From a bacterium (GTDB taxonomy: Bacteria; SM23-31; JAUVVT01): a DNA stretch of 12,159 bases. Shown one piece after another: positions 1-9,621 of the stretch. The stretch spans positions 1 to 12,159 of the forward strand of contig JAUWXV010000106.1 in assembly GCA_030616165.1 (NCBI GenBank), in the 5' to 3' direction. Both the position numbers and the translations under genes were made by a program. The notes beneath the pieces were generated by a model. That model searched no databases and was not told the origin of the DNA. It saw nothing but the letters and a program-made list of their open reading frames with translations. Position 1 is the stretch's first letter. Each line of letters opens with the position of its first letter.

Positions 1-279
1 GTGTGTTTTCAGTCTTCCGGCACATGGGAAGTTTATGCTGATGATATTGATGGTATACCGCTTGAAGCTTCTACAAGCCCTGTTATTACAGTAAACCCAC
101 AAACACCAAACGCGCCAACAGGATTTACTGCTGCAGTACTGTCAACAACTTCAATCAAATGGCAGTGGACAGACAATGAATTATTTGAAGACGGTTATAT
201 CCTGAGAACCAGCACAGGCGGTATAATCAAAACCTTATCTGCTAATGGGTCAAGAAACTTCCCCCATTTTGAAACATAA
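1..279 (+). CDS. Fibronectin type III domain protein, C-terminal fragment broken by a junction
   Basis: The reading frame is open from the window edge, so the GTG at position 1 is probably internal and the N-terminus lies outside. Residues 1-36 read like the last strands of a preceding beta-sandwich domain (TWEVYADDIDG, then VITVNP). Residues 37-84 match a fibronectin type III domain: PNAPTGFTA, SIKWQWTDN, EDGYILRTSTGG and IIKTLSANG are typical strand and turn motifs. Such domains usually occur in tandem in secreted or surface proteins, where they act as spacers or binding modules. The domain is cut after about residue 84: the last eight residues (RNFPHFET) are the antisense of the pgsA fragment on the other strand. 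The real protein should continue with the second half of the domain, so this is a truncated or chimeric fragment. No ligand or partner can be inferred. Confidence 0.6.
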   Translation: MCFQSSGTWEVYADDIDGIPLEASTSPVITVNPQTPNAPTGFTAAVLSTTSIKWQWTDNELFEDGYILRTSTGGIIKTLSANGSRNFPHFET

Positions 280-443
280 CCATATCTTCTTGCTATATGA
301 CCGTCGTACCAATCTGTCAGAGATGCTATAATAAATACAAACGTTGCAACCTGTTCAAAATAATATCTATCAAATAGCAAAAAAAAGACAAAAATCGGCG
401 TTAAAATCATCCGAAGTATTGATAGTTGATTCGGTAATGTCAT
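195..443 (-). CDS. pgsA: CDP-diacylglycerol--glycerol-3-phosphate 3-phosphatidyltransferase, N-terminal fragment
   Basis: PgsA is an inner-membrane enzyme that transfers a phosphatidyl group from CDP-diacylglycerol to glycerol-3-phosphate, the committed step to phosphatidylglycerol. The start MTLPNQLSILRMILTPIFV is typical of the family, and residues 9-42 form hydrophobic membrane segments. The complete CDP-alcohol phosphotransferase signature is present: D44, D47-G48, A51-R52, eight residues, G61, D65 and D69. Homology ends at about residue 73 (DPLADKVLI). The remaining residues are antisense of the fibronectin gene, and a stop follows at 82 residues, whereas PgsA is usually about 170-200 residues with several more membrane helices. 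The metal-binding motif is intact but the fragment could not form a full enzyme. No Shine-Dalgarno sequence is visible before the ATG. Identification is firm; whether the truncation exists in the cell is uncertain. Confidence 0.8.
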   Translation of the reverse strand: MTLPNQLSILRMILTPIFVFFLLFDRYYFEQVATFVFIIASLTDWYDGHIARRYGYVSKWGKFLDPLADKVLIIPPVLVLRI

Positions 444-4061: not shown

Positions 4062-4340
4062 CTAACTATTATATTTAGTATATGAAATCTCATAAGGAAT
4101 ATTATGTTTAATAACTAATAATAAATTGTTAAGTGCAGATTGTGAACCCTCTATAAGAACATTTATGTATCTTTTGCTTTCTAAAATATCGTGTAAAATA
4201 AAACTGTAAAATTCTATTGATTTTCTTGCTTCTTCACTTACTAATTCTGCAATAAAATTTCTATCTTCATCTGAAAAAATTTTCTTTGAGATAATTTTAA
4301 TTATCCACAAAATTTGTTCGTTTAAGTTGTTAGATGCCAT
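4062..4340 (-). CDS. Unknown 92-residue protein overlapping the PLD nuclease gene
   Basis: I do not recognise this protein. Its ATG lies inside the end of the upstream nuclease gene, with a 19-base overlap in another frame, an arrangement typical of translational coupling. It has no signal peptide. The sequence is acidic and helix-prone in the middle (DEDRNFIAELVSEEARKSIE), followed by a more hydrophobic stretch (INVLIEGSQSALNNLLLVI), and ends in YEISYTKYNS. It shows no catalytic motif, zinc ligands or obvious helix-turn-helix. One 60-base line counted by eye gave about 23% GC, like the two genes upstream and lower than flanking housekeeping genes, so it probably arrived with them. A controller, accessory subunit or antidote for the nuclease are all possible guesses, none supported by motif. 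A 94-base spacer separates it from secA. Confidence 0.6.
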   Translation of the reverse strand: MASNNLNEQILWIIKIISKKIFSDEDRNFIAELVSEEARKSIEFYSFILHDILESKRYINVLIEGSQSALNNLLLVIKHNIPYEISYTKYNS

Positions 4341-5176
4341 TTTCCGCCCTTTAAGTTAATTAATATTTTATTCTTAAGAGACTGCTGTGCATCTCTAACT
4401 AAATGTTTCCATTTCTTGCCAAAATGTTGACCATTGATCACTCTATCAATAGTATCATCACAAATATCTGGATGTATTGATTGTATTATTGGATGAAGAT
4501 CAGCCGTACTTAAAGGGCCTTTCTTTTTTAAAATGTAAAGAATAGTATCACAAAATATTGCGTTAATTGTTTTAACTTCTTTTATTCTATTTTTCAATAA
4601 TTCAAAATCAAGAACATCAGTACTTTTCTTTATTAACTTTGCTAATTCCGTGGCTTTTATAAGGTCATCAGCTTTATTTTTATTTATATATAATTTTTCA
4701 GCTTCTTCGTAAATTTTTTCTAACACACTTTTATCTAGTATGTTACCTAATGAATAATATTTTAACATATCTTCTTTTATATTGGAAATTATATTTTTAT
4801 CATTAATCAAAACTCCATATTCAAAATTATTAATTAAACCACCACTTGTAAGATTAGAAGAAGTAATAATTCCAATTCTGTTATCAATTAAATAAACTTT
4901 AGCATGCAATCTGCCAAGACTTGAAATATTAACTTGATTAAAATGATTATATAATTCCAATAATGCAGCTGGTTCAGTAAAACCATTTACTATATTTTTC
5001 GTTGTGAGATTTGTTAAAATAGTCATACTAATATTGGATTTTTGAATTGAATTTGATAATATATTAACTCCCCCAATATTTATAAAAGGAGAAGATACAA
5101 AAAGTTCATTTCTTGTCCCACTAATTATATTAATAAATTCATTTTTCCAAGGTGATAATAAAAATTTATATTGCAT
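4322..5176 (-). CDS. PLD-superfamily nuclease with C-terminal winged-helix-like domain, probable restriction endonuclease
   Basis: The N-terminal half (about 1-145) has the phospholipase D / Nuc fold: a strand-rich start (ELFVSSPFI) and one HKD motif with H91, K93 and D98, followed by the expected TSSNLTSGG at 106-113. A single HKD motif means the active site would form in a homodimer, as in the Nuc family and BfiI-type restriction enzymes, which cut DNA without a metal ion. A charged helical linker follows (150-200). The C-terminal 205-284 (KGPLSTADLHPII, then CDDTIDRVINGQHFGKKWKH, ending GGKWHLTT) looks like a winged-helix DNA-binding module. The gene starts 36 bases after a truncated methyltransferase, supporting a restriction role. 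No Shine-Dalgarno sequence is visible, and three sampled lines are only 22-25% GC. The catalytic residues appear intact. The recognition site is unknown, and a defence nuclease other than classical restriction is possible. Confidence 0.8.
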   Translation of the reverse strand: MQYKFLLSPWKNEFINIISGTRNELFVSSPFINIGGVNILSNSIQKSNISMTILTNLTTKNIVNGFTEPAALLELYNHFNQVNISSLGRLHAKVYLIDNRIGIITSSNLTSGGLINNFEYGVLINDKNIISNIKEDMLKYYSLGNILDKSVLEKIYEEAEKLYINKNKADDLIKATELAKLIKKSTDVLDFELLKNRIKEVKTINAIFCDTILYILKKKGPLSTADLHPIIQSIHPDICDDTIDRVINGQHFGKKWKHLVRDAQQSLKNKILINLKGGKWHLTT

Positions 5177-5212
5177 AATTATTTTTTATTAATTTTTTAT
5201 TACTATATGCAA

Positions 5213-5566
5213 TTAGTATTTCCAAATAATATGATTAACAGTAATAAATCTTAATTCATCAAGTGCTATTAAAATATCCTTAAGATTATTCCAGCAAGAA
5301 AAGACATACATACTTCCAGATTCTTTAAGTACTCTATATATTTCTTTCATCCATTTAATAGTAAAATCAAAATATTTTTCTTTGGGAATTTCATTATATC
5401 CTTCCAAAACTCTTGATGCCTTTCTATTATAGTTGGTTCTCTTTGCCTTAAAATCTATAGCAAATGGTGGATCTGTTATAACAAGGTCAACTTGGTTATA
5501 TGGAATATACTTCATTCCTTCAATACAATCCATATTATATATTTTGTTGACATTTAAATTTTTCAT
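5213..5566 (-). CDS. N4/N6-type site-specific DNA methyltransferase, N-terminal part only
   Basis: The 117 residues match the beginning of a beta-class amino-methyltransferase. The catalytic motif IV TDPPF is at 31-35, in the context VDLVITDPPFAIDF. It is followed by the helix IKWMKEIYRVLK, the strand GSMYVFSCWNNLKDI and the IIWKY block (113-117) that normally leads into the middle of the enzyme. The frame then stops. Family members are usually 250-330 residues and carry the target-recognition region and the S-adenosylmethionine-binding FxGxG motif in the missing C-terminal part. The 36 bases before the nuclease gene contain no continuation in any minus-strand frame, so a simple one-base frameshift does not explain it. 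AAGGA sits nine bases before the ATG. Without the cofactor motif it should be inactive alone, either a deletion remnant or one half of a split enzyme. Confidence 0.85.
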   Translation of the reverse strand: MKNLNVNKIYNMDCIEGMKYIPYNQVDLVITDPPFAIDFKAKRTNYNRKASRVLEGYNEIPKEKYFDFTIKWMKEIYRVLKESGSMYVFSCWNNLKDILIALDELRFITVNHIIWKY

Positions 5567-8460: not shown

Positions 8461-9315
8461 TTAAGGAATAAATAGAACAGTATGAGGATAAATCAAATCA
8501 GGGTCTACAATAATAGAATTATTCGCTTCATAAATCCTTTTCCATTGAAATGGGTCGTTATAAATCTCAGGAATCCCAGCAATCTTACTTAGAAAATCAC
8601 CTCTATTGACTAAATACTGTCCTCTCTCAACTACCTTATGAATCCTAAAAATCTGGTTTGGGAATATCAGGTCTGGATTTCTTATCTCGTCTCTGTTAAA
8701 ACTGTAAATCCTCATCCACTGATATGGGTCCGCATATATATTAGGCTTACCGGCAATTTTCCACAAGTAGTCCCCTCTAATCACGGTGTATATTTCAATT
8801 CTAGGTTTAGCCTGTGCTGCCCTTGCTTTAAGTCGTTCAAACAAACCCTGAACTTCTCTAAGCTGAACAGCAATTTCAGGAAGTCTTGCTCTTCTATCGG
8901 CTGCCATCTCTTCTAATCTTTTTTCTATCGCGTCAACTTCATCCAATCTGTCATATAATTCCTCAAGAGATAATCTTAAAAGCCCTGATATCTGCTGTCT
9001 TAAACTCTCTAACTCGTTTTGAAATGCATCTATTTGTCTCTGATTATAACCCAAAAGTCTGTAAATCTCCTGTCTCATAGCAGCAATTTGATTGTCAAGG
9101 TCGTTTAGTTGATACCTTAAATCTGCTATTTCCTTTTCCAGTTTTGCAATTTCTGCTTTGGCAACCCTTTCCCTTTCCATACATTTTGCCAGTTCTATAT
9201 TATAATCTTCAATTCTCATTCTCTCCTGCTGAGCATATAATGAACTGGTACTTATAGCAAAAATTATAGCAAAACTAATAAATAATATAAAAAGGAACTT
9301 GCTTTTTTCTTCCAT
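8461..9315 (-). CDS. Exported coiled-coil protein with two C-terminal LysM domains
   Basis: Residues 1-28 form a signal peptide (lysine-containing start, hydrophobic FLFILFISFAIIFAIS, cleavage site SLYA before QQ). Residues 35-165 are a long charged heptad-like region rich in E, R, L and Q, predicted coiled coil (KAEIAKLEKEIADLRYQLND). Two LysM-type domains follow at about 176-225 and 234-284. They share YxVxRGDxLxKIAGxPxIYxDPxQWxRIY and end in NPDLIFPNQ or DPDLIYPHT, so they are a clear internal duplication. LysM domains bind N-acetylglucosamine-containing polymers such as peptidoglycan, so the protein probably spans or tethers within the periplasm. AGGAG (9326-9330) lies ten bases before the ATG. 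It follows an Lpp-like lipoprotein gene by 51 bases and precedes a strong terminator, so the two form a unit. The exact role is unknown. Confidence 0.88.
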   Translation of the reverse strand: MEEKSKFLFILFISFAIIFAISTSSLYAQQERMRIEDYNIELAKCMERERVAKAEIAKLEKEIADLRYQLNDLDNQIAAMRQEIYRLLGYNQRQIDAFQNELESLRQQISGLLRLSLEELYDRLDEVDAIEKRLEEMAADRRARLPEIAVQLREVQGLFERLKARAAQAKPRIEIYTVIRGDYLWKIAGKPNIYADPYQWMRIYSFNRDEIRNPDLIFPNQIFRIHKVVERGQYLVNRGDFLSKIAGIPEIYNDPFQWKRIYEANNSIIVDPDLIYPHTVLFIP

Positions 9316-9366
9316 TGTTAGCTGACTCCTTTTTTGAATTTTAAATATTTAGAAATTTCTTTGTAA

Positions 9367-9621
9367 TTATCTGACAGCGTCCCTGTCTCTTGTAAGTTTT
9401 TGCAATTCTTGCCTTTTAGCAGCAATGTCTTTTTCAAGTTGGGCTTTTTCTGTTTTCAGCGCTTCTATTCTCTTCTCTGCTGCGGTTGCCGCATTACATG
9501 CATCCTCAAGTGCTTTCAATTGGTCCTCAGAAGCATATCTTGTACAACCAGTGGAAGACAACATCCCAACTAGAAATAAAATCAATATTAAAAGTGAGAT
9601 AAATCTTTTGATATTTTTCAT
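9367..9621 (-). CDS. Lpp-like small lipoprotein with coiled coil
   Basis: The 84-residue product starts MKNIKRF, followed by a hydrophobic run (ISLLILILFLVGML) and a lipobox-like SSTGC ending at C26, so it should be lipidated at that cysteine. The mature part (27-84) is a continuous charged helix (AEKRIEALKTEKAQLEKDIA) predicted to form a coiled coil, resembling the size and design of murein lipoproteins. It ends in DAVR rather than the terminal lysine through which E. coli Lpp is joined to peptidoglycan, so a covalent link is not expected. A perfect AGGAGG lies 12 bases upstream, the strongest ribosome site in the window, suggesting high expression. The next gene encodes an exported coiled-coil LysM protein, so the pair may link the outer membrane and cell wall. 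Confidence 0.85.
   Translation of the reverse strand: MKNIKRFISLLILILFLVGMLSSTGCTRYASEDQLKALEDACNAATAAEKRIEALKTEKAQLEKDIAAKRQELQKLTRDRDAVR

Follow-up and report, generated by a model that had tools for sequence, protein, structure and literature searches.

An intact winged-helix PLD nuclease beside repeatedly truncated amino-methyltransferases, probably a solitary modification-dependent enzyme

We analysed a 12,159-nt contig stretch (the window) in which three ORFs on the minus strand, flanked by secA and a metallophosphoesterase gene, encode the 5' part of an amino-methyltransferase (MTase), an intact nuclease with a PLD domain and a C-terminal winged helix (PLD-wH), and a small protein we designated S92. 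We favour, with somewhat better than even confidence, the reading that the nuclease is a solitary PLD-wH enzyme, most likely modification-dependent (type IV-like), and that the adjoining MTase is the remnant of a dead restriction-modification (R-M) operon. The MTase is truncated in the window and at seven further loci, the nuclease is conserved and intact with a PLD fold, S92 is conserved, and the genome search turned up no other MTase of that subfamily that could stand in for it. The PLD-wH nuclease class is already known; what is informative is that the MTase next to the nuclease is consistently lost, whichever subfamily it comes from.

Layout of the locus

The MTase stump (positions 5213-5566, minus strand) is 117 residues long and represents the 5' part of a beta-class amino-MTase, from motif IV (TDPPF) to motif VIII. 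The PLD-wH nuclease gene (4322-5176, minus strand) encodes 284 residues and matches Pfam PLDc_2 (9e-12), and the S92 gene (4062-4340, minus strand; 92 residues) starts within the nuclease gene, sharing its last 19 bases. A preliminary description of this DNA had named these same three ORFs, including the 19-base overlap, and all were recovered where it had placed them. It had also spoken of an AT-rich island: the three ORFs are indeed at 23-26% GC (stump 25.7%, PLD gene 25.0%, S92 ORF 23.3%) relative to 37.9% for secA and 33.5% for the metallophosphoesterase gene, but GC elsewhere in the window also drops to 22-30% in places, so that the contrast is real but softer than first noted. Supporting that the arrangement is beyond chance, locus L015, an independent assembly whose nuclease is 77% identical, repeats the three-gene set with the MTase ending at almost the same codon. 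Compared with their L015 counterparts, all three window genes appeared to be under purifying selection. We set aside a mobile cassette with defined ends, as no repeats above the AT-rich chance level were seen, and no RNA elements were found.

The nuclease

An AlphaFold2 model of the nuclease (mean pLDDT 89.6) shows a single PLD domain (about residues 1-150), a helical linker and a C-terminal winged helix (about 204-284). The PLD residues are H91-K93-D98, S106, N108 and E119; the first three, which the preliminary description had called an intact motif, are invariant among 13 aligned relatives. What it had called a DNA-binding-like C-terminus is modelled as a winged helix, residues 204-284 being predicted in the whole-protein model to follow the helix-helix-hairpin-helix-hairpin order of that fold. 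VIA Z scores were highest for Nuc (1byr, 17.7), SauUSI (17.6) and NucT (17.3), followed by BfiI (15.3) and NgoAVII R (14.1). Profile matches among 13 family members were weak, to Mrr_N at the winged helix in two and to RE_NgoFVII in four, and identity with DrmC of DISARM was rejected (47 bits relative to the NCBIfam cut-off of 133).

The winged-helix part of the gene (4322-4567, minus strand) is its best-conserved section, FGKKWKHLVRDAQ, and is the predicted DNA-reading domain. Mean pairwise identity is 67% over the winged helix and 86% over its core (residues 238-264), as against 46% for the PLD domain. Since a recognition part should covary with a paired MTase, conservation of the winged helix beside differing MTases argues that the two are not cognate pairs, and the DNA target of the nuclease seems to be fixed, independent of the neighbouring MTase. 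The nuclease has a dN/dS of about 0.16 relative to L015, and its frame is intact everywhere except L020 and L123, with L126 incomplete at a contig edge. The nuclease of L022 (L022:5992-6834) looks mosaic, with a Chloroflexi-like N-terminal part and a C-terminal winged helix like that of the window group.

The truncated MTase

The stump covers positions 1-82 of the 221 in Pfam PF01555 (N6_N4_Mtase; E 1.3e-13). It falls short of a beta-class N6/N4 MTase, in that motif IV is there but the target-recognition region and AdoMet motif I (DPFxGSG) are absent. Full-length relatives of 260-276 residues on phage contigs (L052-L056) include both the target-recognition region and DPFLGSG, and over the length of the stump the L052 protein is 77% identical to it. 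These phage proteins, the closest full-length relatives found, are orphan MTases with no nuclease of the PLD-wH family adjoining. Past the stump end the profile match can be followed across two TAA codons as far as model position 126, which suggests, although the bases concerned are few and AT-rich, a nonsense change (probably CAA to TAA) combined with a deletion; the MTase/PLD junction (5177-5212, minus strand), where homology is weak and the sequence AT-rich, possibly retains a few decayed MTase codons after the probable nonsense change. The claim that the MTase is cut to its N-terminal part is thereby borne out, and because related truncations recur in independent assemblies (L015, L016 and L022) we rejected assembly error as their cause.

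A GTDB genome scan with the nuclease returned 13 clear relatives, 34-77% identical and from many lineages including archaea; whole-genome samples added four in Chloroflexota, six in the class of L024 and one in the phylum of L018, for a total of 25 loci including the window. Of 180 genomes sampled from the L024 class, 10 carried the nuclease (seeds and already known cases counted), and in the other phylum samples only the seed genomes did. No relative of the nuclease was present in phage records or viral contigs (IMG/VR), and the plasmid protein found was only 23% identical, so carriage by such elements was dismissed.

An amino-MTase adjoined the nuclease at 8 of the 25 loci and was broken at all eight. 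Seven of these are upstream pieces (subfamily 1 in the window, L015, L016 and L022, a second subfamily in L019 and a third in L026 and L027); the eighth, in L122, is a 54-residue piece downstream that faces the nuclease. The MTases at nuclease loci belong to at least three subfamilies, about 27-32% identical between them, and they break at motif VIII (window, L015, L019, L026 and L027, the last additionally frameshifted), at motif I (L016 and L022) or just after motif IV (L122). The systematic search covered amino-MTases, as opposed to C5 or type I enzymes, and found no intact adjacent amino-MTase at any of the 25 loci. Three loci end at contig edges, and 14 gave no amino-MTase match to any of the five queries; as the nuclease is mostly intact at those 14, it can exist without a neighbouring protector. 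The preliminary description listed, among other options, that the set had become a different kind of defence module, and named relatives with an ordinary complete pair and no conserved third gene as what would speak against its reading. The MTase is truncated, the nuclease looks intact and the set does not behave as an ordinary R-M pair; we found no complete pair among the 25 loci and S92 at six of them.

The MTases of L019, L026, L027 and L122 carry TSPPY, TSPPF or FSPPY motifs. Such motifs are more typical of N4-cytosine MTases. These enzymes may thus make N4-methylcytosine, which a reader of adenine methylation alone would ignore. We considered and rejected the possibility that the nuclease had inserted into an MTase gene and left its 3' part downstream, as no such 3' part was found there at any locus. 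In L022 a small zinc-ribbon gene separates the MTase piece from the nuclease; it belongs to one of two zinc-ribbon-like families, the first lying before the nuclease (L022:5796-5981 and L023:192-425) and the second after it (L050:6198-6416 and L122, reverse complement 1064-1267).

We also searched the genome of the window, a fragmented MAG about 90% complete, and found neither a second member of the stump's MTase subfamily nor the missing C-terminal piece. The suggestions that another MTase protects the genome or that the MTase is split gained no support there, as there was no intact subfamily relative and the only pieces were of other subfamilies. Two contigs carrying N- and C-terminal MTase parts (C114 and C8), both at contig ends, probably represent one unrelated MTase with its own downstream gene. 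The complete cognate MTase of a type II R-M system is therefore missing, as the stump has no motif I and the genome searched yielded no substitute or piece. A literature search for truncated or split MTases adjoining nucleases returned nothing.

S92 and the genes downstream

Homologues of S92 lie 3' of the nuclease in L015, L016, L017, L021 and L022, i.e., at six loci with the window, and none was found near the nuclease at the other 19 of 25. The S92 model (mean pLDDT 87.9; strand-helix-strand-strand-helix-strand) is predicted to have a ferredoxin-like fold. We found no match in Pfam, PADLOC or NCBIfam, and the structure matches were to many unrelated proteins that share this fold; being generic, they say nothing on function. 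A TnpA-like transposase was rejected for the same generic match and because no HUH motif was seen in the sequence.

After S92 in L022 there is a 177-residue gene whose start resembles a PD-(D/E)XK nuclease (FDGFYDIPWDFKAHA), as read by eye, with no family match. In L015 a stop codon cuts this REase-like gene short of its catalytic lysine, in L016 and L021 the gene lacks its 5' part, and the window does not have it at all; the leftover 3' part has a dN/dS of 0.125 between L015 and L016. Both arms of the R-M operon are thus disarmed in most cases with the nuclease kept intact, the exception being L022 with its apparently intact REase-like gene. In L019 and L048 a different gene of 205-216 residues directly follows the nuclease and has a GDxEV...E(I/V)KH pattern. 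This second REase-like family (L019:4493-5143; L048 4878-5408, reverse) overlaps or abuts the nuclease stop, with no intact MTase adjoining; a weak Cas2 match of the L019 gene (PADLOC, 3.5e-4) was taken as chance. Divergent to the nuclease in L050 (5114-5296, minus strand) is a fragment starting MEWRGFYFKYLC, which shares 10 of 15 residues with the L022 REase-like start and is possibly a scrap of a restriction gene.

Relation to known enzymes

Winged-helix fusion endonucleases were described in 2024 as N6-methyladenine-dependent type IV enzymes, with 27 predicted PLD-wH members of which two, from Anaerolineaceae and Chloroflexi, were cloned (PMC11037411). The wH fusions in that study are reported to show Dam-dependent toxicity, the outlier being one PLD-wH; since the PLD-wH enzymes resisted purification and Aba4572I, one of the two cloned, proved toxic even in the absence of Dam, methylation dependence is weakly supported for the PLD-wH class. 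The same study argues that wH enzymes should stand alone, 87% of more than 1,000 wH fusions having no MTase within three neighbours on either side, and reports that in the PD-(D/E)XK-wH class adjacent 4mC/6mA MTases were inactivated by frameshift.

Compared by description, the window nuclease resembles Aba4572I and CbaI in the order of its domains (PLD first, winged helix at the C-terminus), in having no NTPase and in mostly standing alone, and its family is likewise commonest, in our samples, in Anaerolineaceae/Chloroflexi. The gene order around Aba4572I (amino-MTase, PLD-wH, hypothetical, hypothetical), where the MTase is not described as broken, is the same as in the window. Unlike the published members, the window locus has a demonstrably truncated MTase and, next to the nuclease, a conserved gene for the predicted ferredoxin-fold protein S92; the motif also differs, being HxDx(4)K or HxEx(4)K in the two published members and HxKx(4)D in the window nuclease.

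DpnI (PD-(D/E)XK-wH) shares a winged helix C-terminal to its nuclease domain, but that domain is of a different fold from PLD. Using a DpnI winged-helix sequence that matched 4esj/4kyw letter for letter, hhalign paired 22 columns in the expected register at 36% identity (E 0.021, probability 2%), which is below significance; in that alignment, itself below significance, R261 of the window nuclease falls on R231, which is changed in the published K229A/R231A variant. DpnI was not among the matches when solved structures were searched with a winged-helix profile. SauUSI (type IV; PLD, SF2 ATPase and SRA) shares the PLD domain at 22% identity, but the window nuclease has neither ATPase nor SRA. 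The restriction enzymes BfiI, NgoAVII/CglI and NgoFVII also share the PLD catalytic domain; their systems have an intact MTase, however, and BfiI, NgoAVII and CglI have B3-like recognition domains in place of the winged helix.

Weighing the explanations

If the nuclease is modification-dependent it would cut adenine (amino)-methylated DNA, read by its C-terminal winged helix, and S92, whatever its presumed role, may be a small ferredoxin-fold partner co-translated with it, the genes being, as we infer, expressed. The MTase would be a dead leftover of an R-M operon, with the nuclease inside or beside that operon. An active amino-MTase next to a nuclease that targets amino-methylated DNA would be self-destructive, so that the MTase would occur only broken; with the MTase lost, the modification-sensitive REase of the same operon would have to decay too; relatives have it 5'-truncated or interrupted, and it is gone from the window. 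The preliminary description started from the premise that a nuclease without its MTase is normally lethal. A modification-dependent nuclease needs no protecting MTase and should conflict with one, so the lethality paradox disappears, and the premise sits poorly with relatives that mostly stand alone (no amino-MTase was detectable at 14 of 25 loci) and with an architecture matching that of modification-dependent endonucleases. Several observations go against our reading: the winged-helix similarity to DpnI is weak, the published PLD-wH enzymes resisted purification and Aba4572I was toxic without Dam, the MTases with TSPP or FSPP motifs may be cytosine enzymes, the MTase near Aba4572I is not described as broken, the PD-(D/E)XK-like gene of L022 looks intact next to a dead MTase, and the stumps stay open and conserved, which is unexpected of plain debris.

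The locus could instead be a decaying type II R-M remnant, recently acquired, in which the PLD protein was the REase or its partner and is now silent or inactive and being lost, with MTase and REase knocked out; we regard this as unlikely. It would account for the GC below the flanks at nearly all loci with comparable flanks, which fits recent transfer, for the patchy occurrence of the nuclease and for the broken or missing REase-like neighbour (L015, L016, L021 and the window). It also has a precedent in PMC3488263, which lists 74 solitary REs whose nearby MTases are corrupted; they resemble the window in having a full-length nuclease beside a truncated MTase, but all 74 have an intact orthologous R-M system elsewhere and none was found for the window. 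A decaying remnant is moreover hard to reconcile with frames intact at all but L020 and L123 (L126 being edge-incomplete), many of these loci having no R-M debris, with purifying selection and with an MTase broken in eight of eight cases; a fixed winged helix beside changing MTases argues against cognate pairs. The nuclease might alternatively be a broad DNA nuclease restrained by S92 in a toxin-antitoxin-like defence and freed upon infection. The 19-base overlap and the position of S92 after the nuclease at six loci would suit this, as would a haloarchaeal PLD nuclease that is toxic alone and held back by its pAgo partner (PMC11442185), but an antidote should regularly accompany its nuclease, and absence of S92 from 19 of 25 loci makes a required antidote unlikely; as the S92 fold is also generic, we give this account very little credence.

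The openness of the stumps raises a further alternative, that the stump is a working part, the half-domain from motif IV to motif VIII being kept as a non-catalytic subunit, e.g., one that contacts DNA or helps the nuclease to fold. This is favoured by the open frame from start codon to break in six of the seven upstream stumps, by the stump dN/dS of 0.12 between the window and L015 (95% 0.06-0.24), close to the value for the nuclease, and by the fact that the stumps are not enriched in changes at positions that never vary among full-length relatives. The breaks in three subfamilies lie within about a dozen residues around motif VIII; this closeness is suggestive and was noticed post hoc. Against it, the breaks lie elsewhere in L016 and L022 (motif I) and in L122 (shortly past motif IV), the L027 frame is shifted, a stump is missing from most loci, and the window and L015 stumps each have one change (G to C and W to C, respectively) at a position where the other eight sequences all agree. 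Constraint on the stumps would mean either that all truncations are recent or that the pieces are in use, and recent independent truncations could likewise leave frames open. We consider a working stump distinctly improbable, and doubt to much the same degree the broader proposal that the N-terminal active-site half of amino-MTases, lacking the AdoMet-binding half, was captured repeatedly as a conserved, non-catalytic PLD-wH partner, independently in at least three subfamilies and each time with the break where motif VIII ends.

Should our preferred reading of a solitary modification-dependent nuclease be true, an intact nuclease beside a beheaded MTase is the picture to be expected, and the apparent paradox is settled. 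The loci also serve as a test of genome conflict by comparison, in that a PLD-wH nuclease and an intact amino-MTase were not observed side by side at any of the 25, which are spread over bacteria and archaea. The poorly expressed PLD-wH class gains a set of homologues and, in S92, a candidate for a missing partner, and the specificity of the broken MTases may give a clue to the modification recognised by the nuclease.

Other features of the window

Near the start of the window, a CDP-alcohol phosphatidyltransferase (PgsA-like) ORF (195-443, minus strand) ends at 82 residues and covers Pfam positions 1-78 of 152. On the opposite strand an ORF unrelated to it (1-279, plus strand) runs in from the contig end, possibly reflecting a contig-end mis-join or a truncated gene. 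Two LysM domains occur in a coiled-coil protein (8461-9621, minus strand) whose neighbour is a probable coiled-coil lipoprotein of 84 residues.
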